From Propionibacteriaceae bacterium (GTDB lineage: Bacteria > Actinomycetota > Actinomycetes > Propionibacteriales > Propionibacteriaceae), in NCBI GenBank assembly GCA_031267645.1, contig JAIRYW010000037.1:1-59287 (forward strand): a DNA stretch of 59,287 nt. Direction: 5' to 3'. The translations under genes and the position numbers were made by a program. The notes under the pieces were generated by a model. The model saw only the letters and a program-made list of their open reading frames with translations, was not told the DNA's origin and did not search any database. Positions 1,192 to 18,703 of the stretch are shown here, one piece after another (position 1 is the stretch's first letter; each line of letters begins with the position of its first letter).

Positions 1192-2955
1192 TTAGCCGAG
1201 GGCGCCGGTCAGAGCCGGGCCGATGATGGACAAGGGAACGGACCCGAGCCGAAGGGCTTGGGTGTGGAAGGCCTTGAGGTCGAAGTCGCGGCCGTGGGCC
1301 AAAGCGGCGGCACGGACCTGGTCGCGCGCCTCCTCCCAGAGGCGCTGACCGATCTTGTAGCTGGGCGCCTGGCCCGGCCAGCCCAGGTAGCGGTTCAGTT
1401 CGGCGGCCAGGAAGGCCTCGTCCCAGCGGACATTGGAGCGCAGCAGCTGCCACGCCTTGGCGGCGTCCCAGGTCCCGCCGCCGTAGGCCTGCGGGGCCGG
1501 CAGTTGGGCGTGGACGCCGATGTCGAGCACGACCCGGGCCGCCCGCATCCTCTGGCCGTCGACCAGCCCGAGCCGGTCGCCCAGGTCGGTCACCAGTCCG
1601 AACTCCTCCATCAGCCGCTCGGCGTAGAGCGCCCAGCCCTCGCCGTGGCCGGAGGTCCGAGCCGCGTGGCGGCGCCACGGGTTGAGTTCGGCCCGGTTGT
1701 GGATGGCCAGGCCGTTCTGGAGATGGTGCCCCGGCACCGCCTCATGGTAAACTGTCGTTTTCTCGCGCCAGGTGGCGAAAGAGGTCACGCTGGGCGGCAC
1801 CGACCACCAGACCCGCCCAGGACGTGAGAAATCGTCGCTCGGCGCCGAATAGTGGACCCCGCCCGAACTGTCCGGGTCGATGCGGGCTTCGACCCGGCGG
1901 ACCGGCTCGGGGATGTCGAAGAAGCGGCCGTCGACGGCCGCGATGGCGGCGTCAGCCGTTTCCTGGACCCAACCGCGCAGGGCGTCGAGGCCGTCGAGGC
2001 GACGTCCCGGTTGGAGGTCGAGCACGGCGATGGCCTGGTCGACCGTCGCGCCCGGCCCGGCCAACCCGGCCGCTATGGCTTCCTGTTCGGCCGTCGTCTG
2101 GGCCAATTCCTCCAGGCCCCAGGCGTAGGTCTGGTCGAGATCGAGCTCGGCTCCAATGAAATAGGGCAACCACAAGGCGTAACGGTCACGTCCGAACCCG
2201 TCCGTGGGCCGGGCCCGAGGCGCCAATTCCTGGGCCAGGAAGCGGGCCGCCTCGGCGTAGGCCAGGCCGGCCGCCGCCGCGCCGTCGGCCAGGTCGGCGG
2301 CCAGCCCCGGGGAGGGCAGGCCCGAGTCCGGCTGGGCGCCCGCCACCAGCGACACGAAAAAAGAAGTTGCTGGATCGGCTTGGCGTCGGGCCCGCTCGAG
2401 GCCGACTTCGACCTGGCGCAGAGCCGGGGCGAGACCCCGGTCGGCGGCCACCCGGAGGGATTCCAGATATCCCTTGAGCGAAGCCGGAATGGCGGCCAAG
2501 CGCTGGGCGATGGCCGCCCAGTCCTCGGTCGTCGCGACGGCCATGACGTCGAAGATGGCCCTGAGCCCGGACAGCGGCGACGTGATCGGGTTGAGCTGAG
2601 CCAGCCACTCCCCCGCCTGGTCGAGCCGTTCCTCGCTGGCGAAGCGCTCCTCGGCGGCGGCCAAGCTGACGCGGTCGACGGCGTCGACCGGCTGGGCCAC
2701 CCGCAGGGCCGCCCCGGTCGCCCGTCGTAGGTCAGCTTTGGCGGCCCAGCCGGCCGGCGAGAAGTCCGGCAACTCGCCCTCGTGGCCGGTCAAGCCGGCC
2801 TGGGTGGCGAAGATGGGATCGAGCGCGGCCCAGCGGTCGACATGGTCCGAGAGAATCTGGTCGATGGCGCTGGGCGGGCGTTCCGCCCCGGCTGGCGCCG
2901 CTGTGGCTGAGCGAAGGTCTTTGAAATCGGTGGCGGGACCAGCGTTCATGGTCAT
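1192..2955 (-). CDS. DUF885 family metallopeptidase-like protein
   Basis: 587-residue protein of the DUF885 family, whose members look like zinc-dependent peptidases but are mostly uncharacterised. The diagnostic motif HEAVPGHHLQ lies near residues 404-413, followed by GHGEGWALYAERL, another family hallmark. No signal peptide is visible, so a cytoplasmic location is likely. It lies directly between a peptide ABC transporter ATPase gene (13 nt upstream) and a second peptide-binding lipoprotein gene. This context suggests it cleaves imported peptides. Length is normal for the family. The start ATG at 2955 has a plausible purine-rich stretch upstream. The reaction is inferred; the family assignment is firm. 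Confidence 0.9.
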   Translation of the reverse strand: MTMNAGPATDFKDLRSATAAPAGAERPPSAIDQILSDHVDRWAALDPIFATQAGLTGHEGELPDFSPAGWAAKADLRRATGAALRVAQPVDAVDRVSLAAAEERFASEERLDQAGEWLAQLNPITSPLSGLRAIFDVMAVATTEDWAAIAQRLAAIPASLKGYLESLRVAADRGLAPALRQVEVGLERARRQADPATSFFVSLVAGAQPDSGLPSPGLAADLADGAAAAGLAYAEAARFLAQELAPRARPTDGFGRDRYALWLPYFIGAELDLDQTYAWGLEELAQTTAEQEAIAAGLAGPGATVDQAIAVLDLQPGRRLDGLDALRGWVQETADAAIAAVDGRFFDIPEPVRRVEARIDPDSSGGVHYSAPSDDFSRPGRVWWSVPPSVTSFATWREKTTVYHEAVPGHHLQNGLAIHNRAELNPWRRHAARTSGHGEGWALYAERLMEEFGLVTDLGDRLGLVDGQRMRAARVVLDIGVHAQLPAPQAYGGGTWDAAKAWQLLRSNVRWDEAFLAAELNRYLGWPGQAPSYKIGQRLWEEARDQVRAAALAHGRDFDLKAFHTQALRLGSVPLSIIGPALTGALG

Positions 2956-2968
2956 CGTCTTATTCCTC

Positions 2969-4618
2969 TCAGAGGGTGGCTTGGGTGTGGAAGAGCGCCT
3001 GACCCGGCACCGCAGACAATAATTCTTTGGTGTGGGGGTCTGTCGGATGGGCGAATACCGTCGGGACGGGGCCGGTTTCGACGATGCGTCCCTGGTTGAT
3101 GACTGCCACGGTGTCGGCGATCTCGGCCACGACCGCCAGGTCGTGGGTTATGAACAGCATCGACAGCCCGAGCCGGCGGCGCAGCTCGGACAAGGTGTCG
3201 AGGATCTGGGCCTGGACCAAGACGTCGAGAGCGGAGACGGCCTCGTCGCAGATGAGGACCTCGGGAGCGAGCGCCAGCGCCCGGGCGATGGCGACGCGTT
3301 GGCGCTGGCCGCCGGACAATTCCGAGGGATAACGCCCGGCGATCTCCTCCGGCAGCCCGACCAAGTCGAGCAGTTCGGCCAGGCGCGTCCGGCGTTCGTC
3401 GGACGCGCCCTGGCCGTGGATGAGGAGCGGCTCCGCCAGAGTCCGGACGACCGTGAACTGGGGATCGAGCGAAGCGTAAGGGTCCTGGAAGACGACCTGG
3501 AGGTTGCGGCAGCGGGCTTTGGCCGCCCGGCCCGAGCGGGATGGCCGGCTCGGCTGGACCGGCTCGCCCGAGCCCAAGCGGACCGTCCCGGCCGTCGGCC
3601 TCTCCAAACCCAGGATGAGCTTGGCCACGGTCGACTTGCCCGAACCGGACTCCCCCACCAAGGCCAGGCATTCCCCACGATGGATGATCAGATCGACCCC
3701 GTCGACGGCCCGGAGGTGGCGCTGGGCCTTGGCCGCGTGGCGCAGCCGAAAGTCCTTGACCAGTCCCTCGACGGTCAGGACGGTCTCGGGCTCGAGGTCG
3801 GCCACCGGCCGGCACTGGGCGGCCGACAGCTTGGGCACGGCCTGCAACAACCGCTTCGTGTACGAGTGGCCGGCATAGGACACGACCTCGTCGGTCGGCC
3901 CGGATTCGACGATGTCGCCGTCGTGCATCACGACCACGCGGTCCGAGCGGTCGGCCACTAGACCCAGGTCGTGGGTGATGAGGATCAAGGACGCGCCCAG
4001 CCGCTTGGTCAGCCGTTCGAGCAGGTCGAGGACCTGTTTCTGGACCACCACGTCGAGGGCCGAGGTCGGCTCGTCGGCCACGATCAGCTTGGGCCGAGCC
4101 AGAACGGCCAGGGCGATGAGGACGCGCTGGCGCATGCCGCCGGACAGCTGGTGCGGGAACTGCTTCAAGATCCGGTCGGTGTCCACCAGACCGACCTCTA
4201 ACAATCGTTCTTTGGATAAGGCGCGCCACCCGCCCGTGACCCCGTCGGCCAGTCGGTGGGCCGCGATGGTCTGGCGGAAGTGCCGCCCGATCGACCACAC
4301 CTCGTTGAGCGAGGTCATCGGGTCCTGCGGGATATAGCCGATCTGGGCGCCGCGGACGTGGCGCCAGGCCCTGGGCGACAAGGCAGCCAGGTCCTGATGC
4401 CCGAAGTGGATCGCACCTGTGACCGACGCGCCACCGGGCAGCAGGCCCATGACGGCGTTGGCGATCGTGGTCTTGCCGGAGCCGGACTCGCCGACGATGG
4501 CCAGGGTCTCTTCGCCGTGGACGACCAGGTCGGCGCCGCGGACGGCCGGAGCCGACGCCTCGCCCGACGTGGCCGAGTATTGGACGCGCAGGTTCTCGAT
4601 CACGACCAGGGCGGTCAT
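2969..4618 (-). CDS. Peptide ABC transporter ATP-binding protein, two fused ATPase domains
   Basis: 549-residue protein carrying two complete ABC ATPase domains, equivalent to DppD and DppF joined in one chain. Domain 1 has Walker A GESGSGKTT, signature LSGGMRQR and Walker B IVADEPTSALD. Domain 2 has GESGSGKST, LSGGQRQR and LICDEAVSALD, where Ala replaces the usual Pro after DE. It powers import through the permeases encoded at 4615-6535. Start: the frame extends upstream to 4771, but that part antisenses nothing conserved and overlaps the permease gene; the ATG at 4618 forms an ATGA overlap with the permease stop. Fused ATPases of this kind are common in actinobacterial peptide importers. 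Confidence 0.94.
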   Translation of the reverse strand: MTALVVIENLRVQYSATSGEASAPAVRGADLVVHGEETLAIVGESGSGKTTIANAVMGLLPGGASVTGAIHFGHQDLAALSPRAWRHVRGAQIGYIPQDPMTSLNEVWSIGRHFRQTIAAHRLADGVTGGWRALSKERLLEVGLVDTDRILKQFPHQLSGGMRQRVLIALAVLARPKLIVADEPTSALDVVVQKQVLDLLERLTKRLGASLILITHDLGLVADRSDRVVVMHDGDIVESGPTDEVVSYAGHSYTKRLLQAVPKLSAAQCRPVADLEPETVLTVEGLVKDFRLRHAAKAQRHLRAVDGVDLIIHRGECLALVGESGSGKSTVAKLILGLERPTAGTVRLGSGEPVQPSRPSRSGRAAKARCRNLQVVFQDPYASLDPQFTVVRTLAEPLLIHGQGASDERRTRLAELLDLVGLPEEIAGRYPSELSGGQRQRVAIARALALAPEVLICDEAVSALDVLVQAQILDTLSELRRRLGLSMLFITHDLAVVAEIADTVAVINQGRIVETGPVPTVFAHPTDPHTKELLSAVPGQALFHTQATL

Positions 4619-5607
4619 CGCACGGTCCCCTTCGCGCCGAAGGTCGAGCGGACGACGTCGCCCAGAACCAGAAAATTGAAGACTGTCAACGTCAGCGCCC
4701 CGGCCGGCCACAGCAGGATGCCCGGGTTGACCTTGAGGACGGTCCGCCCGTCCGAGATCGCCCTCCCCCAACTCGGCACGTCGGGTGGCAGCCCGATGCC
4801 GAGGTAAGACAATGACGCTTCTGCTGCGATCAGTCCACCGACCGCCATCGTCACGACGACGATGATGGGGGCGAGGATATTGGGCAAGATGTGGGTGAGG
4901 AGGATGCGCGGCCGCGACGCCCCCAGAGTCCGGGTGGCGGCGACGAAGTCCTTGGTCGTGACCTCGATGGTGGCCGAACGGGCGATGCGGGCGGTCGAGG
5001 TCCAGCCGAAGACCATCAGGATGGCGGTCAGCGTCAGGACCGATCGCTGGGCCACGACTTGGCCCGCCACGATCGCCCCTAGCAACAGCGGTATGGCGAA
5101 GAAGATATCGGTCAAGCGCGAGATGACGGCGTCGACCTTGCCTCCGAAATAGCCCGCCACGACGCCCAAGATGGTGCCCACCAGGGTCACGCCGAAGGCC
5201 GCCAGCAGGCCGACCGAGACCGAGGCCCGGGCGCCGTAGACGATGGTGGTGAGGATGTCGCAGCCCTGGAAATCGGCCCCGAGCGGGAATTCGGCGCTCA
5301 TCGGGGCCTGGGAGTCAGCCAGGATGCAGCGCCGCGGATCGCGGTCGCGGAAGAGTTGGGGCCAGGCTGCGACCAACAGGATGAAGGCCGTCAGAACAGC
5401 CGAGAACCAAAAACCAGGATTGCGTTTGAGTCGACGCCAGGCCTCGCCCCAGATGCCTCTAGAGCGGGCCTTGGGCGCGGCCGACGGCGCGATATCGTCC
5501 GATTCGGAAATGGATGTCTCTGGAGCGACGTAGTGGAGACGCTGCTCCAGCAGAGCCATTTCGGCTTCTGGGTCACCGATCAACATGGTGGAATCAGGCG
5601 GCGCCAT
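4615..5607 (-). CDS. Peptide ABC transporter permease (DppC/OppC type)
   Basis: 330-residue inner-membrane permease. A cytoplasmic N-terminal region of about 60 residues precedes the first membrane span (around GFWFSAVLTAFILLVAAW), followed by five more spans. The ATPase-coupling EAA loop is visible as AATRTLGASRPRILLTHILPN-like sequence, and the C-terminal pattern LSYLGIGLPPDVPSWG is typical of DppC/OppC. The gene overlaps the neighbouring permease gene by 14 bp and the ATPase gene by 4 bp, so the three are translationally coupled. It pairs with the DppB-type protein to form the pore. Confidence 0.94.
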   Translation of the reverse strand: MAPPDSTMLIGDPEAEMALLEQRLHYVAPETSISESDDIAPSAAPKARSRGIWGEAWRRLKRNPGFWFSAVLTAFILLVAAWPQLFRDRDPRRCILADSQAPMSAEFPLGADFQGCDILTTIVYGARASVSVGLLAAFGVTLVGTILGVVAGYFGGKVDAVISRLTDIFFAIPLLLGAIVAGQVVAQRSVLTLTAILMVFGWTSTARIARSATIEVTTKDFVAATRTLGASRPRILLTHILPNILAPIIVVVTMAVGGLIAAEASLSYLGIGLPPDVPSWGRAISDGRTVLKVNPGILLWPAGALTLTVFNFLVLGDVVRSTFGAKGTVR

Positions 5608-6535
5608 AGCGGACCTTCGGGTTGAGAACGGCGTAGAGCAGGTCGACCACCAGGTTGACCGTGACGAAGATGACGACCATGACGATGACGAGGGAGACCG
5701 TCGGGGCCGATTCGCCGCGGATGATGTTCTGGTAGACCTGTTGACCGTAGCCGGGGATGTTGAAGATGGCCTCGGTGATGATGGCGCCGCCGAGCAGGGC
5801 GCCGAATTCCGTGCCGATGACCGTGATGATCGGGATGAGGGCGTTGCGCAGGACGTGGGCGGTCGTGATCTGCCATTCCGGCAGGCCGCGCGCCCGGGCC
5901 GCTTTGACGTGGTCGGCCCGCATCGCCTCGGAGACGCCGGAACGGGTGAAACGGATGAGGAAGGCCAGCGAGCCGAGGGCCAGGACGACAGCCGGGACGA
6001 TCATCTCCGACCAGCCGGCCTGGGCCGAGACGGTCGGTTTGACGATGCCCCAGCGGACGCCGAGGAAATATTGCACGACGTAGCCGGAGACGAAAGTGGG
6101 AACGCCGATCAGGACCATCGTGACGACCATGGCGGCGCCGTCGAAGATCGAGCCGCGGCGCCGGCCGGCCACCAGGCCGACGCCGACGCCGACGACGGAC
6201 TGGATCAGAACCGTGACGCAGGCCAGGCGGAAGGTGACGGGGAGGGCCCGGCCGATGATCTCGGTGACGGGCCGCCCGGAGAAGGTGGCGCCGAGGTCGC
6301 CTCGGAAGACGCCTTCGAGATAAAGCAGGTATTGGATGAAGAACGGCTTGTCGAGGTTGTACTGCGCGCGGATGCGGGCGATGGTGGCCTGGTCCAGCCG
6401 GGTGGCTGATTCCGAGCCGACCAGCGCCGCCACCGGATCGCCCGGCATGGCGTAGACCATGGCGTACAAGATCAGAGTGGCCGCCAGGACCACGATCAGC
6501 GCCTGTCCTAGACGCGACAGAGCGTATCTGAGCAT
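5594..6535 (-). CDS. Peptide ABC transporter permease (DppB/OppB type)
   Basis: 313-residue polytopic membrane protein. It starts MLRYALSRLGQALIVV, the usual DppB opening with one N-terminal span, then a periplasm-facing loop containing MPGDPVAAL. Later spans surround the EAA motif (KAARARGLPEWQITTAHVLRN). It is the second half of the transport pore with the DppC-type protein encoded downstream. It starts 7 nt after the S10 peptidase stop and overlaps the next permease by 14 bp, so all are one transcription unit. Confidence 0.94.
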   Translation of the reverse strand: MLRYALSRLGQALIVVLAATLILYAMVYAMPGDPVAALVGSESATRLDQATIARIRAQYNLDKPFFIQYLLYLEGVFRGDLGATFSGRPVTEIIGRALPVTFRLACVTVLIQSVVGVGVGLVAGRRRGSIFDGAAMVVTMVLIGVPTFVSGYVVQYFLGVRWGIVKPTVSAQAGWSEMIVPAVVLALGSLAFLIRFTRSGVSEAMRADHVKAARARGLPEWQITTAHVLRNALIPIITVIGTEFGALLGGAIITEAIFNIPGYGQQVYQNIIRGESAPTVSLVIVMVVIFVTVNLVVDLLYAVLNPKVRYGAA

Positions 6536-6542
6536 GACGGCC

Positions 6543-8060
6543 TCACGGAGTCGGCTCTGTCACGTCACGAGGACTCCCCAGGCCCGTCACGAAGCGCTCG
6601 ATGTCGGCCAACTCCTTGAGCCGGCTGGTTTCGTCGAGGTAGATCATGTGGCCGGCTTCGTAGTGGACGACTTCGATCCTGCGCAGCTCGCCCCTGGGGA
6701 CTTCCAGCTGGGCCAGGTCGGTCTCCGCCCCCCAGTAGGGGGTGCAGACGTCGTAGTAACCGAGGTGGTACTGGACGCGGAGGTGGGCGTTGACGCGCAG
6801 CGCGGTCGAGAGGGCGCCGACCGAGTCGAAGCCGAGGAAGTGGTTCTTCGGCCCCCGCCAAGGCTGGACCCGGTCGGTGATGAGTTCGTACGGCAAATCG
6901 TTTTTGTACCCCAGCTCGTGGCGTAGGTAGTGGTTGATGCCCGACCCGAAAGCGCCCCGGATGGCCTGGTCGGTCGGATCGTGTTGGGCCACCTCGCCGG
7001 CCCGGTCCGGGTTCCAACCGGTGAAGCGGCCGTCGATCTCCCCCACCGTCAGACCCCGGTCGCGGAGCAGCTCGGCGTAAAATCGACGCTTGTCGACTTT
7101 GAGGTTGGTGGCGTCGAGGTAGCGGGCGCCGAGTCCGGTCAAGCGTGACAACTTGGCAATCGCTTCGTCCCGTTCGGATCTGGGCAAGCGATGACCGCGC
7201 GCCAACACCCGCAAGAGGTCCCCGGAGGCGTAGTCCTCGGCCTCGGCCACGACCTCGGCCAGTGTCTTCCCGGGATGGAAGCCGTGGTAATGGGCGACGG
7301 CGGCGTAGGTCGGTAGGAAGGCCGGCGTCGACAGGATCGCCCCCGGGGCGAACTTCATGCCGTCGCCGCCCAAGGTGGAGGAGATCAAGATCAGCCCGGC
7401 CAGGTAGAGGCCGTGTCTGACCGACAGTTCAGCGGCAATTTTAGTTCCCCTGAGCACGCCATAGGACTCCCCCGCCAGATAGAGCGGCGAAGCCCAGCGG
7501 TCGCGGCGCGTGGTCCAGAGCCGGATGACCTGGCTGATGGCCTGGACGTCCTCGTCGACCCCGTGGTAAAGATCGGCCGGACTGCCCTCGGCGGCCCGCG
7601 AGTAGCCCGTGTCGACCGGGTCGATCAGGACCAGGTCGGCGTAGCGCAGCGGTGTCTCCAGGTTGTCGACCAGCCGGTAGGGCTGGGAGAATGGCTTGTC
7701 GCCGGCGGAATTGTCGACCCGCCTGGGGCCGAACAGCCCCAGGTGGAGCCAGACCGAGGCCGAGCCGGGACCGCCGTTGAAGACGAAGATGACCGGGCGT
7801 TGGACCCGTTCCTGGTCCGAGACTTCGGCCAGGTAGGCGGTGGTGAAGATACGGGCCGTGACGCGGGGAGACTGGGCCACCCCGGAACTGGGCCCGTCTT
7901 CCAGGAGGTCGAGGTAGCCGGCTTCGGCCGTGTACCTGAGACCGTTCGGCAGAATGTGACTTGTCACGCTGAGCCGATTGCGTTCCTCCAGATCGCGGTC
8001 GATCGAAGGTGACGGAGCCGCCGAGGCGACCCCACCATTCTCATCCAGGCGGGCGGACAT
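6543..8060 (-). CDS. S10 family serine carboxypeptidase-like peptidase
   Basis: 505-residue peptidase S10 (serine carboxypeptidase) family protein with an alpha/beta-hydrolase fold. The catalytic serine is in GESYG near residue 199, the oxyanion-hole strand is FNGGPGSAS near residue 95, the acid is in the YYDVCTP segment (about residue 437) and the histidine is in YEAGHMIY (about residue 470). No signal peptide is apparent, suggesting cytoplasmic hydrolysis of imported peptides from the C-terminus. The start ATG shares one base with the stop of the substrate-binding protein gene, and the next gene is the permease. Bacterial S10 members are poorly characterised, so substrate specificity is unknown. 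Confidence 0.92.
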   Translation of the reverse strand: MSARLDENGGVASAAPSPSIDRDLEERNRLSVTSHILPNGLRYTAEAGYLDLLEDGPSSGVAQSPRVTARIFTTAYLAEVSDQERVQRPVIFVFNGGPGSASVWLHLGLFGPRRVDNSAGDKPFSQPYRLVDNLETPLRYADLVLIDPVDTGYSRAAEGSPADLYHGVDEDVQAISQVIRLWTTRRDRWASPLYLAGESYGVLRGTKIAAELSVRHGLYLAGLILISSTLGGDGMKFAPGAILSTPAFLPTYAAVAHYHGFHPGKTLAEVVAEAEDYASGDLLRVLARGHRLPRSERDEAIAKLSRLTGLGARYLDATNLKVDKRRFYAELLRDRGLTVGEIDGRFTGWNPDRAGEVAQHDPTDQAIRGAFGSGINHYLRHELGYKNDLPYELITDRVQPWRGPKNHFLGFDSVGALSTALRVNAHLRVQYHLGYYDVCTPYWGAETDLAQLEVPRGELRRIEVVHYEAGHMIYLDETSRLKELADIERFVTGLGSPRDVTEPTP

Positions 8061-9715
8061 CAGTCGGCCCGCTCGTACAGGTGGACGAGGTTGCCACCGG
8101 TCGGAGACGGTATGACATTGGTCACCTTGTTGGAGTGGATGACCGACCTGTAGGTGTACCAGAGCGGCAGCGCCGGGAGGTCCTGGAAGAGGACTTCTTG
8201 GGCTTGGTTGAAGAAGACCACCGCCTCGTCAGTCGTGGCGGCGGAACGGCCCCGCTGGAGCAGGTCCTCGTATTCCTGGCTGGTCCAGCCGGACTGGTTC
8301 GAAGCGCCGCCAGTCTGGGAATACACATTACGTAATATGTCGTCCAGACTGGGGTTGAAGGGGATCTCCGAAGCCCGCCAGGGGCCGGTGAATTCGTGCT
8401 TGTCACGCTGTTCCAGGAACTCCGGGAAGGTCGTGATCGGCGTCGGCACGGCGTTGATCCCGAGGTTCTCGCGCAACTGGTAGGAGACGGCTTCGACCCA
8501 TTCCTTGTGGGCCCCGTCGCCGTTGTAGTAGATCGGCAGACGCTCGCCCGCGTAGCCCCCGGCCTGGTCCAGCAGTGCCTTGGCCTGGGCCAAGTCGAAG
8601 TCGAGGACCTCGCCGCCGGGGATGTCGTCGCGCCAGCCGTAGAGGCCGATCTGGGTGAAGTCCTTGGCCGGAGCGCCCAGGCCGCCGAAGATTGTGTCAA
8701 TGATTTCCTGACGATTGATGGCGTGCGAGATGGCTTGGCGGACGAGAAGTCCGTTGTCAGAGGCCCAGAACTCGTCGTAGAGCGGGAAAGTCAGAGTCTG
8801 GGTCGGACCGCCGGGGCCGGTGAGGAAGCGGTCGCCGAAGTCGGCCTGGGCCGTCAGCAGGCCGCCGCCGGAAGCCGAGCCGACGTCGAGGTTGTCCGCT
8901 AGGACGTCTTGGTAGATGGCGTCTGGATCGGTGTAATAACGGTAGTAAATACCTGTATTGTGAGGTGTGCGCGTCCCCGTGTAATTTGGGTTGAGTTCGA
9001 GGTAGGTCCCGGTGGACTCGTCGATCTGGCCCTGGATCTGGTAGGGACCATTGCCGAACGGGGTTTCCTTCCAGGCTTCCGGGTCGTCGAAGAAGGCCTG
9101 GGGCAGCGGGCTGAACACGACCGAGGTGAGGTGGGCCCGGAAGCCGGACCAGGGTTCGGCTAGTTCGATCGTGAAAGTCAGATCGTCGACCACGGTGAGA
9201 CCGGATAGTTCGGTGGCGGTGGGCTCGACGCCGACCTCGGACGGATGGACCTCGGAATAGCCCTTGATGACGGCCAGGTCGCCGGCCGCTTTCTGGACGT
9301 TCTCGGCCTGAGCGCCCCAGTTCCAGGCGTCGACGAAGCTCTTCGCGGTGACGGCCGAACCGTCGGCGAACTTCTGATCCGACTTGACCTTGACCGTGAA
9401 CGTGACCGCGTCCTCGGTCTCGATCGACTCGGCCACCTCGTTGACGACCTCGCCAGACTGGTCGATTCGGACCAGGCCATCGAAGATGAGCCAGACCAGA
9501 GTCTTACGGCCGGCTTCCTCCGTGTCGGTCGGGATGAGCGGACCGTCGGGCGGCGTGGCCGCGATCGAAATCGGGTCGTACTCGCCGCCGACGGGCCCGG
9601 CGTCGTCGGTCGTCTGGCCGCCAGAGCAGGCGGCCAGACCGAAGACGAGGCTTGAGGCGGCCAGTGCCGCCACTGTCTTGAACCGGCCGGACTTAGGCCG
9701 GAAGCTTGATGTCAT
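8060..9715 (-). CDS. Peptide ABC transporter substrate-binding lipoprotein
   Basis: 551-residue family 5 solute-binding protein. The N-terminus has a positively charged region, a hydrophobic stretch and lipobox FGLAAC with Cys30 as the lipidation site. The mature domain contains VWLIFDGLVR, NGPYQIQ and VRQAISHAINRQEI. The start ATG at 9715 is preceded by AAAGGAGA at good spacing; a longer open frame exists upstream but runs into the preceding gene and lacks a signal sequence. It is the receptor for the importer encoded downstream and a close paralogue of the partial gene at 1-1166. Substrate unknown; operon context suggests peptides, perhaps sulfur-containing ones. Confidence 0.95.
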   Translation of the reverse strand: MTSSFRPKSGRFKTVAALAASSLVFGLAACSGGQTTDDAGPVGGEYDPISIAATPPDGPLIPTDTEEAGRKTLVWLIFDGLVRIDQSGEVVNEVAESIETEDAVTFTVKVKSDQKFADGSAVTAKSFVDAWNWGAQAENVQKAAGDLAVIKGYSEVHPSEVGVEPTATELSGLTVVDDLTFTIELAEPWSGFRAHLTSVVFSPLPQAFFDDPEAWKETPFGNGPYQIQGQIDESTGTYLELNPNYTGTRTPHNTGIYYRYYTDPDAIYQDVLADNLDVGSASGGGLLTAQADFGDRFLTGPGGPTQTLTFPLYDEFWASDNGLLVRQAISHAINRQEIIDTIFGGLGAPAKDFTQIGLYGWRDDIPGGEVLDFDLAQAKALLDQAGGYAGERLPIYYNGDGAHKEWVEAVSYQLRENLGINAVPTPITTFPEFLEQRDKHEFTGPWRASEIPFNPSLDDILRNVYSQTGGASNQSGWTSQEYEDLLQRGRSAATTDEAVVFFNQAQEVLFQDLPALPLWYTYRSVIHSNKVTNVIPSPTGGNLVHLYERAD

Positions 9716-9776
9716 GGGTGGTCTCCTTTGTAGTTGCACATGCCAGGCGGCGCCGTCCCGCGCCGTGGCCCGTTCG

Positions 9777-10868
9777 TCAGCGGAAGGTCCAGCGCTCGTA
9801 GGAGCCGCCGCCTCCCGGGCCGGAATAGAAGGGCGTGCCGGTGAGGTGGTCGCGACCAGCCGGTTCCTGCCAGGCTTTGAGGGCCTCGGCCGGGCTCGGC
9901 AGGTTCGACTTGTCGCCGAAGCCGCCCTGGTCGGCGTACTGGCCGGACGGACCGGGCAGCAGACCCAAGAAATATTGTTCCCGTTCGTCGGCGAAGCCTT
10001 GCTGGAACAGGTCGCGGGCGTAATTCCACAGGTTCGGGAAATCGGCCAGTTTGACCGTGTCCTCCTCGCCGAACAACTTAACGATGCCGACGCGGTAGCC
10101 CCGATCGTAGCTCGAGAGCGTCTGGAAGAGGCGGACGTCGGAGTCCGTGATCCCAGGGCCGAAGAGGTAGCGCCGTGAGGCCAGCCGGAAGTCGTAGTCG
10201 AACAACCGTCCCTCGAAGACATGTTTGGCCGCCCGGGCGGCCTCCAGGTTGGTAGCGAAGATCTGTTTATAAGTGCCATTATTGATATCGTCGAAGATCT
10301 GCTGGTTGAGCAGGTCGATCTCCTGACGCAACGGGACCGGGTAGAGCTCGGGCGCGCCGGGCTTGTGGTACGACGCCCAGGCGGTCTCCCATTCGTAGCT
10401 CAGCAGGTGGTAGTTATTGCTGACGACCAGTCCGGATTTGGTGTCGATGACCGTTGGGGAGGTGCCCCGACCTTGAAAGTTGGGGTCGGTCCGGCGGTAG
10501 AAGTCATTGAGCCTATCGGTGCCGAAATCACGCCGCAAGCTGTTGCCGTGTTCGGCGATCTGCCAGCCTTCCTCGTCCCGGCCGGTCAACAGCGCGAAGG
10601 GCACGGCTTCGGTCAGGCCCAAGAGGCGCAGGACGATCTGCTGGCGCCGGTTCCAGCCGCAGCCGGTATTGCCAGCCAGGACATAACGGCCCGGCTCGAC
10701 CGGGAACTCGCCCGGCCCGACGCCGAAGTGGGCTGTGAACCAGTTGCGCTGGCGGCGGAAGGCGCCGTCCTCGGTTTGTTCGACGTTGGTCTCGGGGAAA
10801 CTGGCCGGGGGCGTCGGATGGGGTTTCCGCTTCAGGTCGGCTTCGAGTTCGGCGGTCAGGGTTGCCAT
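9777..10868 (-). CDS. Glutathionyl-hydroquinone-reductase-like (ECM4/YqjG) thioredoxin-fold GST protein
   Basis: 363-residue protein matching the xi-class GST/glutathionyl-hydroquinone reductase fold: an N-terminal thioredoxin-like domain, then the segment DPNFQGRGTSPTVID with a VVSNN strand, then the C-terminal helical domain with RYLFGP, DSDVRLFQTL and DFPNLWNYARDL. Characterised members reduce glutathionyl-hydroquinones with a catalytic Cys in CPWA. Here the equivalent site reads GCGWNRR (Cys70), so the cysteine is kept but the Pro-Trp-Ala context is not. Actinobacteria generally use mycothiol rather than glutathione, so the thiol partner is uncertain. It is the first long gene of the peptide-uptake operon, with AAGGAG 6 nt before the ATG, about 120 nt after the cysteine leader peptide. 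Confidence 0.85.
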   Translation of the reverse strand: MATLTAELEADLKRKPHPTPPASFPETNVEQTEDGAFRRQRNWFTAHFGVGPGEFPVEPGRYVLAGNTGCGWNRRQQIVLRLLGLTEAVPFALLTGRDEEGWQIAEHGNSLRRDFGTDRLNDFYRRTDPNFQGRGTSPTVIDTKSGLVVSNNYHLLSYEWETAWASYHKPGAPELYPVPLRQEIDLLNQQIFDDINNGTYKQIFATNLEAARAAKHVFEGRLFDYDFRLASRRYLFGPGITDSDVRLFQTLSSYDRGYRVGIVKLFGEEDTVKLADFPNLWNYARDLFQQGFADEREQYFLGLLPGPSGQYADQGGFGDKSNLPSPAEALKAWQEPAGRDHLTGTPFYSGPGGGGSYERWTFR

Positions 10869-10988
10869 TGTTGCTCCTTGTGGTTGGGTGATCAGAGAGT
10901 CGCGCGGACATAGACAGGTAAACGTAAATGATCAGACGGGAGGGGTCGATGAGCGACAGGGAAACGAGTGGGAAGGCGAGTCCGAACG

Positions 10989-11033
10989 TCACCGACAGGG
11001 ACAACGACGTGGGTCTATGTGGCTCTGAGCCAT
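10989..11033 (-). CDS. Putative cysteine-responsive leader peptide (14 aa)
   Basis: A 14-codon ORF, MAQSHIDPRRCPCR, with GGAGGT placed 4 nt before its ATG, a far better ribosome site than chance would give. It sits in the untranslated leader of the uptake operon. Two of its last four codons are TGT Cys codons, directly before Arg and TGA. The SHID...R...C.CR layout resembles the short leader peptides found ahead of sulfur-metabolism genes in other actinobacteria, where ribosome behaviour at Cys codons sets downstream expression. An in-frame ATG 12 nt upstream exists but lacks a ribosome site. The role is inferred; the ORF, Shine-Dalgarno and Cys codons are seen directly. Confidence 0.7.
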   Translation of the reverse strand: MAQSHIDPRRCPCR

Positions 11034-11101
11034 GTCAACCTCCATCCGTCGCGGCGGGCGCCATCCGGCGTCAGCCAGGGGACTCTCCCTCGGTGACGAG
11101 G

Positions 11102-11131
11102 AACCTAGCACATGTATACGTAAGTCTGCAA
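11102..11131 (-). promoter_or_regulatory. Predicted promoter of the peptide/thiol uptake operon
   Basis: On the minus strand TTGCAG (11131-11126) and TAGGTT (11107-11102) are separated by 18 nt, a plausible sigma-70-type promoter. Transcription would start near 11095, giving a leader of about 225 nt that contains the cysteine leader peptide. The region is much richer in A/T than its surroundings. Confidence 0.45.
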
Positions 11132-11140
11132 GTGTATACA
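11112..11140. promoter_or_regulatory. TGTATAC direct-repeat operator candidate
   Basis: Two near-identical palindromic octamers, ATGTATAC (11112-11119) and TGTATACA (11133-11140), start 21 bp apart, i.e. two helical turns. They flank the predicted -35 box of the uptake operon; the first lies in the spacer and the second just upstream. This is a typical arrangement for a repressor dimer pair. The cognate regulator is not in the window. Confidence 0.45.
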
Positions 11141-11413
11141 TACTCCACTATTCCTCTACCAGACGACTAGCCTGATCTGAAACGTCCGGGAACGAGCACG
11201 CCTGCCTGCCCTGGGAATGTCCGCCTGGCGGACGCGTCGGTTCGCTGGTGGGTCTGGATAGAGCGGTCGATAGCGGCGAGGCGGACATCAGGAAGAAGCC
11301 CGCCAAGCGGCAGGCGGGGGCGTCGGTTCAGAGGGCGGACCCCGCGCGGACATCGCTCGTCAGGCCCGCGCCCAACCTTCGCGGACGTCTTCGCGTCGGG
11401 CGAGACGGCGGGC
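11141..11413. other. Non-coding gap between smpB and the uptake operon promoter
   Basis: No credible gene. It holds an inverted repeat GTCCGCC-T-GGCGGAC (11219-11233) that could act as a transcription stop for smpB, and a short CGGGC/GCCCG hairpin overlapping the smpB stop. A tmRNA gene was looked for because of the smpB neighbour and was not recognised. Confidence 0.4.
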
Positions 11414-11887
11414 TCAAGCCCGGCGACGGCGCCCGGACATGGCCCGCTCGACCTCGCGTTGGGCGTCGCGGGCGGCCAGGGTCTGACGCTTGTCCCACTC
11501 CCGTTTGCCGGTGGCCAAAGCGATCTCGACCTTGGCGTAGCCGTCCGAGAAATAGATCGACAGCGGCACGATGGTTTGACCGGGCACTTGGGCCTCGCGG
11601 TTCAATTTGGCTAGCTCCCGCCGGTTCAACAGCAGCTTACGGACCCGCCGGGGGGCGTGGTTGGTCCAGGTGCCGAAGGCGTACTCCGGGATGTGGGCCT
11701 CGCGCAGCCAGGCCTCGCCGTCATCGATGGTGACGTAGGCGTCGGTCAGGGAGGCCCGGCCGGCCCGCAGCGACTTGACCTCGGTGCCGGTCAGGACCAA
11801 GCCAGCCTCGAAACGATCGTGGAGATGGTAGTCGTGGCGCGCCTTGCGGTTCTGAGCCACTAGTTTGCGGCCCTGCTCTTTCGGCAC
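11414..11887 (-). CDS. smpB: SsrA-binding protein SmpB
   Basis: 157-residue tmRNA-binding protein for trans-translation rescue of stalled ribosomes. Conserved segments: [13 protein letters not shown] at the N-terminus, GTEVKSLR, the AHIPEY motif, and the basic C-terminal tail ending GRRRRA that follows [11 protein letters not shown] at 11887 is chosen because AGGAGG lies 6 nt upstream and the protein then starts with the usual (V)PKEQGRK. The alternative ATG at 11905 would place the Shine-Dalgarno inside the coding region. It is downstream of the ftsE-ftsX-M23 genes, a conserved actinobacterial arrangement, separated by 266 nt. Confidence 0.96.
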
Positions 11888-12153
11888 GTCGTCCTCCTTC
11901 CCCACTGTGGGCGTCTGGTCCGACGCCGCCTTCGACTGAGATGGCCCGCCGGGCGCTGCCCGCCGCGGACCGAAGCTCGATTGTAGCGGTCCGCGACCGT
12001 CTCTGCCGTCGGCTCCTCGCGCCCGCCGCCGGGGCCGACTGGCGGCGTCTGGCCGGCCACCGCCCGCCCGGGCCGGCTCGCGCCAGGACGGACTGCGGCT
12101 GAAGGTCGGTCAGTCACAGGGCCGGTCAGGCGCCTGAGACCTAATCGGCCGCC

Positions 12154-13446
12154 TCAGAGATAGTTCATGACATTGGTCAGGGAGCCGTTCACCCACAGCA
12201 TCAGGTGCAGGTGGCAGCCGGTCGACATGCCGGTGGTGCCGACGTAACCGATGATCTGGCCCTGGGACACCCAGGCCCCCTTGGCCACGGCGAAACTGGA
12301 CAGGTGGTTGTACGAGGTCACCATGTGGCGCCCACTGACGATGCCGTGGTCGATGAAGACCCGGTTGCCATAAGCGGAGTTGTAATAGCGGTCCGTCACG
12401 GTGCCGGAGGCGGCGGCCTTGATCGGAGTGCCGCAGCCGGACCCCAGATCGGTGCCGTCGTGCAGCTTGTAGACCCCGGTGATGGGGTGGACGCGCATGC
12501 CGTAGGCCGAGGTGATGCGACCGTCGACCGGGCGGATCAGACCGTAGGAGGAAGGTCCGGCGGCGCTCGAACCGCCCCCGCTGGCGGCCGCCTCCTGCTG
12601 GCGGCGGGCTTCCTCGGCCCGCTGGGCGATGGCGGCGTTGACGGCGTTCTGTTCCCGCTCCAGGTCGGCCAAGGCGCGCTGGTCGGCCGCCAGGGCGTCT
12701 TGGGCCTCGGTCTTGGCGGCCTGCTCGACGGCCAGGGCCGAGTCCAAAGCGGCCTTGGCCTGTTGGGCCCGTTGCTCGGCCGCTTCGGTCTGGTCCAGAT
12801 AGTCGGCCGCCGCCTGTTCGGCCAGATCGGCCCGGGCCTCGGCCACGGCCCGGACGCCCCGGGCCTGGGCCAGAGCCAGTTGGAGGTCCTTCAAACGGTC
12901 CAGACCGGCTTGGCCGGTGGCGAAGACGGTTTCGACCCACTGCAGACGGTTGGAGACGCTGGCCGTGGTGTCGGGATTTATGGCGGCGGCAAGGGCGACC
13001 AAGGGGCTGTTCTGTTGGAAGGTCGAACGCACGACCTGGCCCAAGCGGCTCCGTTCGGACTCCAGGGCGGCCAAGCCGGCCTCTTCGTGCTGACGGGCCT
13101 GCTCCAATTCGGCTTGGGACTGATCCAACTCCAGTTGGCGCAGGTCGTGCTGCTGAGTCGCCTCCAGCACATCCGCCTCGGCTTGGAGCAGGTCGGCCTG
13201 GGCCTGGGCGACTTGGGCCTGGGCCTGGCTGACACGCTGGGAGGCGGCGTTGTAGACGGCCGAGGAAGCCTCTAGCTCGACTCGGGCCTCGGCCATGGCG
13301 ACGCCCAGCTGGGCCTTACGGGTGTCCAACTCGTCGGCCGCCGCCGGAGCGGCCAACCAGCCGCTGGCCAGTAGCGACAAGACCAGAGCGGTCATCAACC
13401 GCCGACTGGAGCGCCGGGCCGTCCGGGTGCGGGCTGCCGTAGCCAT
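12154..13446 (-). CDS. Secreted M23 (LytM) murein hydrolase / activator with coiled coil, EnvC-like
   Basis: 430-residue cell-wall hydrolase. Signal peptide to about residue 37 (cleavage APAAA/DE), a long Ala/Gln/Glu-rich coiled coil from about 40 to 290, then a LytM domain. The zinc-site motifs appear intact: HDGTDLG near residue 329, YNHL, and HLHLM near residue 412. The coiled-coil plus M23 design and position right after ftsX match the EnvC/RipC-like partners that FtsEX regulates across the membrane during division. The start at 13446 has GGGAG upstream and gives the signal peptide; an in-frame extension lies in the ftsX-proximal spacer and is not conserved. Downstream of ftsX by 29 nt. 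Confidence 0.9.
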   Translation of the reverse strand: MATAARTRTARRSSRRLMTALVLSLLASGWLAAPAAADELDTRKAQLGVAMAEARVELEASSAVYNAASQRVSQAQAQVAQAQADLLQAEADVLEATQQHDLRQLELDQSQAELEQARQHEEAGLAALESERSRLGQVVRSTFQQNSPLVALAAAINPDTTASVSNRLQWVETVFATGQAGLDRLKDLQLALAQARGVRAVAEARADLAEQAAADYLDQTEAAEQRAQQAKAALDSALAVEQAAKTEAQDALAADQRALADLEREQNAVNAAIAQRAEEARRQQEAAASGGGSSAAGPSSYGLIRPVDGRITSAYGMRVHPITGVYKLHDGTDLGSGCGTPIKAAASGTVTDRYYNSAYGNRVFIDHGIVSGRHMVTSYNHLSSFAVAKGAWVSQGQIIGYVGTTGMSTGCHLHLMLWVNGSLTNVMNYL

Positions 13447-16439: not shown

Positions 16440-17522
16440 GTGCGCGTCTACAACTTCTCGGCCGGACCGGCCATGCTGCCCTTGGAAGTGCTCGAACGGG
16501 CCCAAACCGAGTTGACCGACTGGCAAAGCTCCGGCATGAGCGTGATCGAGGTCTCGCACCGGGGCCAGCCCTTCGTCGAGTGCGCCCACCAGACCGAGGC
16601 CAAGCTGCGCCGTCTGATGGAGCTGCCGGACGACTACCGCGTCCTCTTCCTGCAGGGCGGGGCGACGGCCCAGTTCTCGGTCGTGCCGCTCAACCTGACC
16701 GCCCCGGGCCAGTCGGCTTGCTACCTCAAGACCGGCTCCTGGTCGGGCAAGGCCATCGCCGCCGCCCGTCGCCAACAGGTCGAGGTCCAGATCCTGGCCG
16801 ACCAGGCCGAGTCGTCGTACACCAGCGTGCCGGCGGCCGACTCGTACAGCGTGCCCAGCGACGCCGCCTACCTGCACTACACCCCCAACGAGACCATCGG
16901 CGGAGTCGAGTTCGACTACCTGCCCCAGACCGGCTCCGTCCCGCTGGTGGGCGATTTCAGCTCCACCATCTTGTCGCGTCCGCTCGACCTCTCCCGCTTC
17001 GGCCTGGTCTACGCCGGGGCCCAGAAGAACCTGGGGCCGTCCGGGCTCTGCCTGGTGATCGTGCGCGACGACCTGATCGGCCACGCCCGGGCCAACACGC
17101 CCGACCTGTTCGACTACGCCGCCCTGGCCAAGGCCGACTCCATGGTCAACACCCCGCCCACCTTCTCGATCTATCTGCTCGACCTGGTGTTGAACTGGGT
17201 CGAGCGCCAGGGCGGTCCGGTCGAACTGGGCCGCCGCAACCAGGCCAAGGCGACGGCTTTGTACGACGCCATCGACGCCTCCGACTTCTACGCCAACCCG
17301 GTGGCGCGATCGGCCCGCTCCTGGATGAACGTCGTCTTCACCCTGGCCGACCCCGAGTTGGACGCCGTCTTCGCCTCCCAGGCCGCCGCCGCCGGGTTGA
17401 CCAATCTGAAGGGCCACCGTTCGGTCGGCGGCATGCGGGCCAGTCTGTACAACGCCATGCCGATGTCCGGAGTCCAGGCTCTGATCGACTTCATGACCGA
17501 TTTCGAACGCCGTCAAGGCTAG
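16440..17522 (+). CDS. serC: Phosphoserine aminotransferase
   Basis: 360-residue PLP enzyme converting 3-phosphohydroxypyruvate plus glutamate to phosphoserine. It opens VYNFSAGPAMLP, has the phosphate-binding QGGATAQF, and the PLP lysine in YAGAQKNLGPSG near residue 196. Length is typical. Start GTG at 16440 lacks a ribosome site, but a -10-like hexamer ends 6 nt before it. serA follows 11 nt downstream, so the first two steps of serine synthesis after 3-phosphoglycerate are co-transcribed. No serB is seen. Confidence 0.97.
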   Translation: MRVYNFSAGPAMLPLEVLERAQTELTDWQSSGMSVIEVSHRGQPFVECAHQTEAKLRRLMELPDDYRVLFLQGGATAQFSVVPLNLTAPGQSACYLKTGSWSGKAIAAARRQQVEVQILADQAESSYTSVPAADSYSVPSDAAYLHYTPNETIGGVEFDYLPQTGSVPLVGDFSSTILSRPLDLSRFGLVYAGAQKNLGPSGLCLVIVRDDLIGHARANTPDLFDYAALAKADSMVNTPPTFSIYLLDLVLNWVERQGGPVELGRRNQAKATALYDAIDASDFYANPVARSARSWMNVVFTLADPELDAVFASQAAAAGLTNLKGHRSVGGMRASLYNAMPMSGVQALIDFMTDFERRQG

Positions 17523-17533
17523 GAGACGACCCC

Positions 17534-18703
17534 ATGACCTTCCAGGTGCGCACGCTCAACGCCATCTCCAAGACCGGCCTGAGCCGGCTGCCGTCCGATC
17601 TGTACGAGGTCGGCCCGGACGTCCCCACCCCCCAGGCCCTGCTCCTGCGCTCGGCCAACCTGCACGGGGCCGCCATCCCCAGCTCCGTCTTGGCGGTAGC
17701 CCGGGCCGGAGCCGGCACCAACAACATCCCCATCTCCGATTATTCGGCCCTGGGGACGCCGGTCTTCAACACCCCCGGCGCCAACGCCAACGCGGTCAAG
17801 GAATTGACCATCGCGGCCATCTTCTTGGCCGCCCGCAACATCGTCGACGCAGCCGCCTTCGCCCACCGGCTGGAGGGCGACGCCGCCGCCATGGACCAGG
17901 CCGTCGAGGCGGGCAAGAAACGTTACGTCGGTTTCGAGCTGCCGGGCCGTACCCTGGGCGTCATCGGCCTGGGGGCCATCGGCGTGGAGGTGGCCAACGC
18001 CGCCTCCGCCTTGGGCATGCGCGTGTTGGGCTACGACCCGGCCGTCACGGTCGACAACGCCTGGAAGCTGTCCAGCTTCGTCGAGCGCGTGACCGACCTG
18101 GGCCAGCTGTTGGCCCGGTCCGAGATCGTGACCTTGCACGTCCCCTTGGTCCCAGCCACCCGGGAACTGATCGGCCCGGAGCAATTGGCCTTGATGCGGT
18201 CGTCCTCCGTCTTGGTCAACTTCGCCCGCGGCCCGATCGTGCAGGAGGCCGCCGTGGTGGCGGCGCTGGAGAGCAAGCGCCTGCGCGGCTACGTCTGCGA
18301 TTTCCCCAGCCCGGCTTTGAACAAGCGTCCCGGCGCCGTCACCCTGCCCCATCTGGGGGCCTCCACCAACGAGGCCGAGGAGAATTGCGCCGTCATGGCG
18401 GTGGAGCAGCTGAGGGCCTACCTGGAGCACGGCGTCATCCGTAACTCGGTCAACTTCCCGGAAGCCGACCTGCCGCGCCGCGAAGGCACCCGCCGGCTGG
18501 CCATCGCCAACTCCAACGTGCCCAACATGGTCGGCCAGATGACCTCTCTGCTGGCCGAGGCCGAACTCAACATCGCCGACCTGTTGAACCGTTCCAAGGG
18601 CGATCTGGCCTACACCCTGATCGACATCGACGGCGACCTGCCGAGCAAACTTTTGAAACGGATCAAAGGCATCGCCGGCGTCCTGCGGGCCCGCCTGATC
18701 TGA
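17534..18703 (+). CDS. serA: D-3-phosphoglycerate dehydrogenase, short ACT-domain form
   Basis: 389-residue NAD-dependent dehydrogenase for the first step of serine synthesis. Rossmann motif GVIGLGAIGVEV (about residue 137), catalytic Arg in NFARGP, catalytic His in PHLGAST, and a C-terminal ACT domain (about residues 315-389) that probably binds serine. The segment where E. coli SerA keeps its catalytic Glu reads GYVCDFPSPAL, with no Glu; this looks like a subfamily feature rather than a mutation. ATG at 17534 with GGAG about 10 nt upstream, inside the serC stop region. Together with serC it forms a two-gene operon. Confidence 0.93.
   Translation: MTFQVRTLNAISKTGLSRLPSDLYEVGPDVPTPQALLLRSANLHGAAIPSSVLAVARAGAGTNNIPISDYSALGTPVFNTPGANANAVKELTIAAIFLAARNIVDAAAFAHRLEGDAAAMDQAVEAGKKRYVGFELPGRTLGVIGLGAIGVEVANAASALGMRVLGYDPAVTVDNAWKLSSFVERVTDLGQLLARSEIVTLHVPLVPATRELIGPEQLALMRSSSVLVNFARGPIVQEAAVVAALESKRLRGYVCDFPSPALNKRPGAVTLPHLGASTNEAEENCAVMAVEQLRAYLEHGVIRNSVNFPEADLPRREGTRRLAIANSNVPNMVGQMTSLLAEAELNIADLLNRSKGDLAYTLIDIDGDLPSKLLKRIKGIAGVLRARLI

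Follow-up and report, generated by a model that had tools for sequence, protein, structure and literature searches.

The stretch of DNA that was analyzed (59,287 nt, in the following called the window) contains, on its minus strand, a short open reading frame (ORF) with cysteine codons near the stop codon, and behind it genes for a GST-like protein and a peptide transporter. The question is whether this ORF is a leader peptide that couples the operon to the cysteine supply, whether it is present by chance, or whether it senses another signal.

The leader ORF and its surroundings

The ORF MAQSHIDPRRCPCR* (asterisks denote stop codons) extends from position 11033 to 10989 (10989..11033, minus strand) and comprises 14 codons plus stop (ATG GCT CAG AGC CAC ATA GAC CCA CGT CGT TGT CCC TGT CGG TGA). 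A GGAGG ribosome-binding site (11039..11043, minus strand) is located 5 nt 5' of the ATG, and the sequence directly 5' of the ORF is GGAGGTTGAC. Two TGT codons are found at 11003-11001 and 10997-10995, i.e., codons 11 and 13 of 14; the cysteine codons are thus clustered near the stop, as is characteristic of cysteine leader peptides of actinobacteria. A preliminary description of the locus had reported the 14-codon ORF, the ribosome site and the ending Cys-Pro-Cys-Arg-stop, and all of them were read as claimed. The first long gene starts at 10868 and has an AAGGAG 5' of it. Stop codon and GST start are separated by a weakly structured spacer of 120 nt (10869..10988, minus strand), which holds this AAGGAG. 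Rfam gave no match within window positions 8000-13000 at E up to 1, and NCBIfam gave none for the open frame of 40 aa that contains the ORF. Farther upstream, 5' of the leader ORF, an inverted repeat (ATGTATAC...GTATACAT, 11112-11141, arms 14 nt apart) represents a possible operator.

The downstream genes

Seven genes follow on the minus strand, and strand and spacing suggest that they form one operon. They encode an Xi-class GST / glutathionyl-hydroquinone-reductase-like protein (9777..10868), an extracellular solute-binding protein of family 5 (SBP5; peptide/opine/nickel class; 8060..9715), a Peptidase_S10-like serine carboxypeptidase (6543..8060), a DppB-type (5594..6535) and a DppC-type permease (4615..5607), a fused DppD-DppF-type ATPase (2969..4618) and a DUF885 protein (1192..2955), a candidate second peptidase. 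SBP5, two permeases and two ATPase domains make up the complement of an ABC importer of the DppBCDF type; neither the binding protein nor the permeases reached the cut-off of an NCBIfam importer model. The transporter, one S10-type peptidase and a GST-type first gene could therefore be retained from the earlier account, which had counted two peptidases; the second is not established, because DUF885 is, by its Pfam name, a domain of unknown function.

The first gene was compared with proteins of known structure. With an E limit of 0.01, the PDB search yielded 11 sequences and pointed to Xi-class GSTs / glutathionyl-hydroquinone reductases, with 4pts_A as the best match (E 2e-46) and yqjG 3r3e and 4uss also among them. 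The protein is homologous to YqjG and the Trametes Xi GSTs over most of its length and has a cysteine, Cys70, that aligns with the Cys of the CPW motif, which we take to be the catalytic residue of Xi-class GSTs. It differs from them in that CGW replaces CPW, and in that its operon also encodes a peptide transporter and is associated with cysteine leaders. In Pfam only GST_C_2 was found, below its cut-off. By homology and by the position of its putative active-site cysteine, the first gene product is a candidate Xi-class GST / glutathionyl-hydroquinone reductase. The genome (76 contigs, 2.85 Mb) encodes MshC, above the NCBIfam cut-off, and therefore mycothiol, which this organism probably makes, may be the reductant of the GST. 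At 16440-18703 of the window, 5.4 kb from the leader, lie ORFs resembling serC and serA, presumably of serine synthesis on the route to the cysteine precursor; smpB-, ftsX-, ftsE- and prfB-like ORFs are situated in between, as we take their resemblance to indicate.

Recurrence of cysteine-ending upstream ORFs

Taken alone, the window ORF is no more than suggestive, because 1-2% of shuffled leaders pass the filter that it passes (a Shine-Dalgarno sequence or a -10-like box, plus at least two Cys within the last six codons): dinucleotide shuffling of the window leader (480 nt) produced a passing ORF in 2 of 100 cases, and a second run, on a 510-nt stretch, in 1 of 100. A single ORF with two cysteine codons is weak evidence, and therefore relatives were compared.

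In the relatives, Xi-GST-type genes are often arranged in tandem or adjoin DppB/C/DF genes, so that GST and peptide importer form a recurrent unit; such operons were met in Propionibacteriaceae, Ancrocorticia, Actinomyces and Bifidobacteriaceae. The order GST-SBP5-S10-DppB-DppC-DppDF was met in one other locus, L063, many loci being too short to display the order. Of 396 genomes sampled across the phylum, a single one contained the GST subfamily (E <= 1e-120); this is the genome of the window itself, and the sample thus gives no independent replicate. Three to five tandem Xi-class GST-like matches were observed in L077, L083, L089 and L116, which belong to Bifidobacterium and to a genome of the family Propionibacteriaceae.

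Cysteine-ending upstream ORFs (uORFs) head GST/peptide-transporter operons at 17 loci in 12 genomes, of which nine were found automatically, six before DppB-first operons with a laxer filter, and two by eye (L125 and L100). The genome of the window has three close GST copies (C57, which is the window, C11 and C63), and all three operons are headed by such a uORF, with unrelated peptide bodies: MAKVMLISVCCCLCL precedes the GST gene in C63, and MSTALTFDGLAHLRCLARRCCR, which is devoid of a clear ribosome site, precedes DppB in C11. Elsewhere the uORF stands before the GST gene in G017:C44 (MVETVLNPVCCRLCL), in Ancrocorticia populi (MRKSMLTAQLSINCASACCCRMCCR), in L100 (MFAFLRLGVDSAARMCASCCCR) and L101 (MFASMQSGVSSAARMLSSCCCR), at two loci of G196 and at one of G371. 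In L087 and L065 it stands before an amidohydrolase-like gene that is followed by the GST gene, and in G017:C1, G021, G120, Ancrocorticia sp. (L185) and Actinomyces sp. ZJ308 (L186) before DppB of operons that begin with the Dpp genes. A Shine-Dalgarno-like site is present in 14 of the 17 leaders, the exceptions being L170, L172 and L186.

The automatic test of operon starts began with 56 loci, nine of which were dropped because a contig or stretch end cut them off; L100 was excluded for this reason. Nine of the remaining 47 passed, the window included, versus 0.58 expected from shuffles. Among the 38 failures are six operons with a Cys uORF farther upstream before DppB, which the test missed because the walk stops at gaps of more than 200 nt, and L125, where a spurious upstream ORF was taken. 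For DppB-first operons the ribosome site was waived if three of the last eight residues were Cys; with this laxer filter, which was widened after four of the six positives (L170, L172, L175, L176) had already been seen, 6 of 9 had a Cys uORF versus 0.22 expected. Only L175, L176 and L185 of these six have a Shine-Dalgarno-like site. Five loci were fetched to test the DppB-first idea and two were positive, i.e., L185 and L186, the latter in a region that had been unflagged under the stricter filter; no Cys uORF precedes DppB in L181, L182 and L183. A simpler first test, restricted to the 480 nt 5' of the GST gene, gave 6 of 48 versus 0.41 expected; the opposite strand yielded none. Among control genes from the loci of the relatives, tested over stretches of 360 nt, 6 of 136 passed, and 3 of 133 after removal of three that were at the head of or adjoining GST genes.

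Several candidates were left out of the count: MNERKSDGFGTRIINTNIARNGCRCLCCA* of Bifidobacterium psychraerophilum (L080/L182), which possibly overlaps the GST start, the doubtful MSCEPQRVIDRCCRMCMAAINAAFPGAGNR of L062, MMRAHYACPCR of L049 at a contig end, and L097 and L184, which do not head a GST operon in the stretch seen. In L097, from Propionibacterium cyclohexanicum, the uORF MSTLNARHNIPAVGARASLCCRACLPACC* (about 11952, minus strand) precedes a gene for a twin-arginine-type secreted protein that adjoins GST genes.

Cysteine leaders are not general for these operons. The automatic test failed for L064, L067 and L068, for 11 of 11 named Bifidobacterium loci and for 4 of 4 proteobacterial loci in view; the stretches of G012 and G005 and the more distant GST gene of the own genome (C30, L187) have no Cys uORF. 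Together, the negative results indicate that cysteine leaders are confined to a subset of the operons, which here we take to belong to the orders Propionibacteriales and Actinomycetales. L063, whose GST is 81% identical and which is the sole relative seen with the same gene order, also has no Cys uORF. Its 300-nt leader (5700-6001) holds a perfect 10-bp hairpin, GGAAGACGCT/AGCGTCTTCC.

Within homologous leaders the cysteine codons are mostly kept across species (L175/L176/L124, L170/L172, L100/L101). Over all leaders, peptide bodies and Cys spacing vary widely and the Cys codons persist. The preliminary description had proposed a search for the same ORF in front of homologous operons. The type of element did recur, at the 17 loci in 12 genomes, but the closest orthologues do not share the peptide sequence: L063 has no Cys uORF, L062 a doubtful one, and L065 an unrelated one that heads a different operon. 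The window peptide itself has no clear orthologue. Recurrence before homologous operons or other cysteine genes, a feature of this class of leaders, was thus found, with L063 as an exception.

Codon choice was also analyzed. In the 16 leaders other than that of the window the cysteine codons are TGT 47 times and TGC 15 times, whereas 17 genes, all from the window alone, contain 5 TGT and 26 TGC. The bias is uneven, since L124 and L176 favour TGC. In the window leader both cysteine codons are TGT.

These results bear on the possibility that the window ORF arose by chance and that a promoter alone controls the operon, e.g., via the inverted repeat ATGTATAC/GTATACAT. The pass rates of 1-2% for shuffled leaders and about 2% for control genes speak for this explanation, as do the uORF-free orthologous operon L063 and the small number of cysteine codons, which are just two and non-adjacent while most relatives have more. 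Nevertheless, we regard chance as unlikely: Cys-ending uORFs are present at the two other close GST operons of the genome and at 14 operons elsewhere, both cysteine codons of the window ORF are TGT, the minority codon of the window genes, and the ribosome site is strong. The window ORF is probably a genuine cysteine-responsive leader, judging from this comparison.

Other cysteine genes and the nature of the signal

Further genes of the same genus were inspected. A Cys uORF precedes 4 of 30 cysKM-family loci (L130, L146, L151, L141), with L151 below the family cut-off and L141 lacking a clear ribosome site; L134 and L148, where the ORFs close to cysKM-family genes are weak, were not counted. 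All three loci with genes for cystine-type binding proteins have one (L167, L168, L169). L167 (MITSFLLCCCPCR*) was the source of the query and had been picked out through a Cys-uORF pattern in the first place, L168 is devoid of a clear ribosome site, and that of L169 is weak. The cystine specificity of these transporters is presumed from family resemblance only. Ten MetQ loci had no clear Cys uORF, and the cysK gene of the own genome (L129) had none. In L036 (from 1514 on) and L037 (from 1512 on) the conserved leaders MIFRMRISLCCCCCR and MILRMRISLCCRCCCR are directly followed, after the stop, by a hairpin (CGCGCGCC...GGCGCGCG) and then by a small conserved ORF; the genomes, G024 and G039, belong to one large-genome genus of the same order.

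Because Cys uORFs recur before GST/Dpp, cysKM-family and cystine-type transporter genes, cysteine shortage is the natural reading of the signal. The leader could instead be real but act as a nascent-peptide, metal or redox sensor for thiol or quinone stress rather than for the Cys-tRNA supply. This would suit a first gene of the hydroquinone-reductase class, a CxC ending that could bind metal, and a genome that encodes MshC and probably makes mycothiol. However, the same element is found before cysKM-family and cystine-type transporter genes, and the Cys codons persist while peptide bodies and Cys spacing differ widely, which favours codon sensing over a defined peptide. We consider such a sensor quite improbable, and a signal of cysteine shortage remains the preferred reading.

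The spacer and the possible output

No intrinsic terminator was found between the window uORF and the GST start, so that the hallmark of a classical attenuator is lacking, and a simple scan for hairpins detected none in any of the 17 spacers. In all spacers but one (L087; 16 of 17) C is more frequent than G, a comparison with no control spacers behind it, and the window spacer has the largest C excess relative to G (C 0.39 versus G 0.17). The window leader is less structured than its shuffles (z +1.20 and +1.67). The absence of terminators and the C excess fit Rho-dependent control, without proving it.

The element CCCCTCCC, which was correctly described as the complement of 10938-10945, had been thought to pair with the downstream AAGGAG. 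Sequestration of the GST Shine-Dalgarno sequence by CCCCTCCC is hardly credible: the possible pairing GGAG:CTCC comprises 4 bp (-5.4 kcal/mol) and has a probability of 0.06-0.07, and CCCCTCCC in isolation prefers the uORF's own ribosome site (-15.7 versus -5.4 kcal/mol). With an ensemble pairing probability of at most 0.07 it was ruled out as an anti-Shine-Dalgarno sequence.

Pairing of the uORF itself with the ribosome site of the first gene was also analyzed. The strongest isolated pairing in the window joins GUUGUCCCU and AGGAGCAAC at -10.1 kcal/mol, a value that 20 of 200 shuffles match, and in the ensemble the probability of uORF:ribosome-site pairing is 0.00. In G000:C63 and G017:C44, UCUGUGUCUG, which includes a Cys codon together with neighbouring codons, is perfectly complementary over 10 nt to CAGACACAGA in the GST ribosome-site region. 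Ensemble folding of the sister leaders (L113, L078) gave pairing of 0.90-1.00 over nt -20 to -13, which in L113 falls for the most part immediately 5' of the core ribosome site. Since the Cys-codon stretch complements this region, a stalled ribosome would free the ribosome site in these two leaders.

In a set of 17 loci (10 GST and 7 non-GST loci) that was assembled before the DppB-first leaders were found, uORF 3' ends paired better with the ribosome site of their own gene than with those of others (permutation P 0.0013). The GST loci gave P 0.0074, the non-GST loci P 0.078 (not significant), and a less strict version of the test, again with all 17 loci, P 0.062; these P values are not fully independent, because some loci are close kin. 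When a ribosome mask was placed on the leader in the folding, the predicted Shine-Dalgarno accessibility gained clearly in 3 of 8 loci (window, L078, L101), and the gain in the window does not come from freed uORF:ribosome-site pairs.

Relation to known leader peptides

Canestrari et al. 2020 reportedly described cysteine-responsive polycysteine short ORFs in Mycobacterium smegmatis, in which the Cys stretch is said to cover the downstream ribosome site. Pairing with the downstream ribosome-site region could form in the two sister leaders and is not predicted in the window. Cysteine-responsive uORFs of M. smegmatis are described in PMC9031893, PMC13236596 and PMC9094748, and in the first two, downstream expression is held to depend on the ribosome speed at the Cys codons. 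Common to these systems and the window leader are a short uORF, clustered Cys codons and cysteine-related genes downstream. As portrayed there, the M. smegmatis ORFs are leaderless and have contiguous Cys codons, whereas the window ORF has a GGAGG site and Cys-Pro-Cys and thus lacks both features, and the operon behind it is of the Xi-GST/peptide-import type, not of cysteine biosynthesis.

Seliverstov et al. (2005, PMC1262725) predicted cysteine leader peptides for cys operons of Mycobacterium spp. and P. acnes and for the cbs gene of B. longum. The likeness includes the actinobacterial hosts, Cys codons near the stop and no terminator found, and Rho was proposed there; those leaders are predictions only and precede biosynthetic genes, in contrast to the window operon, which is of a different type. 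In PMC8079986 the printed sequence of the Streptomyces lividans metNIQ leader ends with ...RCMCRRMCAF. Its authors call it leaderless and interpret it as a methionine/threonine leader; because of this ending it resembles a cysteine leader before an importer operon, but metNIQ encodes a methionine importer, and no GST. In Rhodobacterales, a Cys uORF is described before cysS (PMC8632094). Cysteine leaders before GST/peptide-import operons were not reported in the literature searched (open-licence papers in PMC). The kind of switch is known, and in these searches the type of target operon appears to be unreported.

Proposed mechanism and significance

Taken together, the sequence comparison supports a leader ORF with its ribosome site, the recurrence of uORFs before homologous operons and cysteine genes, and a preference for TGT; ribosome stalling, the direction of the response and the function of the operon we infer. 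We think it likely that the leader senses charged tRNA-Cys and switches on an operon for thiol-peptide import and thiol release at cysteine shortage. With plentiful cysteine, ribosomes would complete MAQSHIDPRRCPCR* and depart, and the downstream operon would be poorly expressed. With scarce cysteine, stalling of a ribosome on the two TGT codons would turn the operon on. The output could be translational, a stalled ribosome uncovering the GST ribosome site as the pairing in G000:C63 and G017:C44 would allow, or it could be Rho-dependent. SBP5, DppBC and DppDF would import thiol-bearing peptides, the S10 protein and the DUF885 protein would trim them, and the Xi-class GST would free the thiol. 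Of the cysteine-shortage switch in the preliminary description, the comparative recurrence (17 loci, plus cysKM-family and cystine-type genes) supports the idea as such, but the pairing of CCCCTCCC with AAGGAG finds no support.

A more specific version is possible, though doubtful: the operon might mine cysteine by importing peptides with cysteines that are masked through quinones or further S-adducts, trimming them and stripping the adduct with the GST, with cysteine shortage inducing it through Cys codons in differently built leaders. Such peptides may arise in lignin- and cuticle-rich insect guts. If true, bacterial hydroquinone-reductase-like GSTs would gain a role in nutritional sulfur supply in place of detoxification.

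Cys-codon leaders thus appear to reach past cysteine biosynthesis to import and thiol processing, and a single genome has three of them with unrelated peptide bodies. The leader would assign a likely purpose, cysteine supply, to GST/peptide-transporter operons that are often present in multiple copies and that homology alone leaves unexplained.
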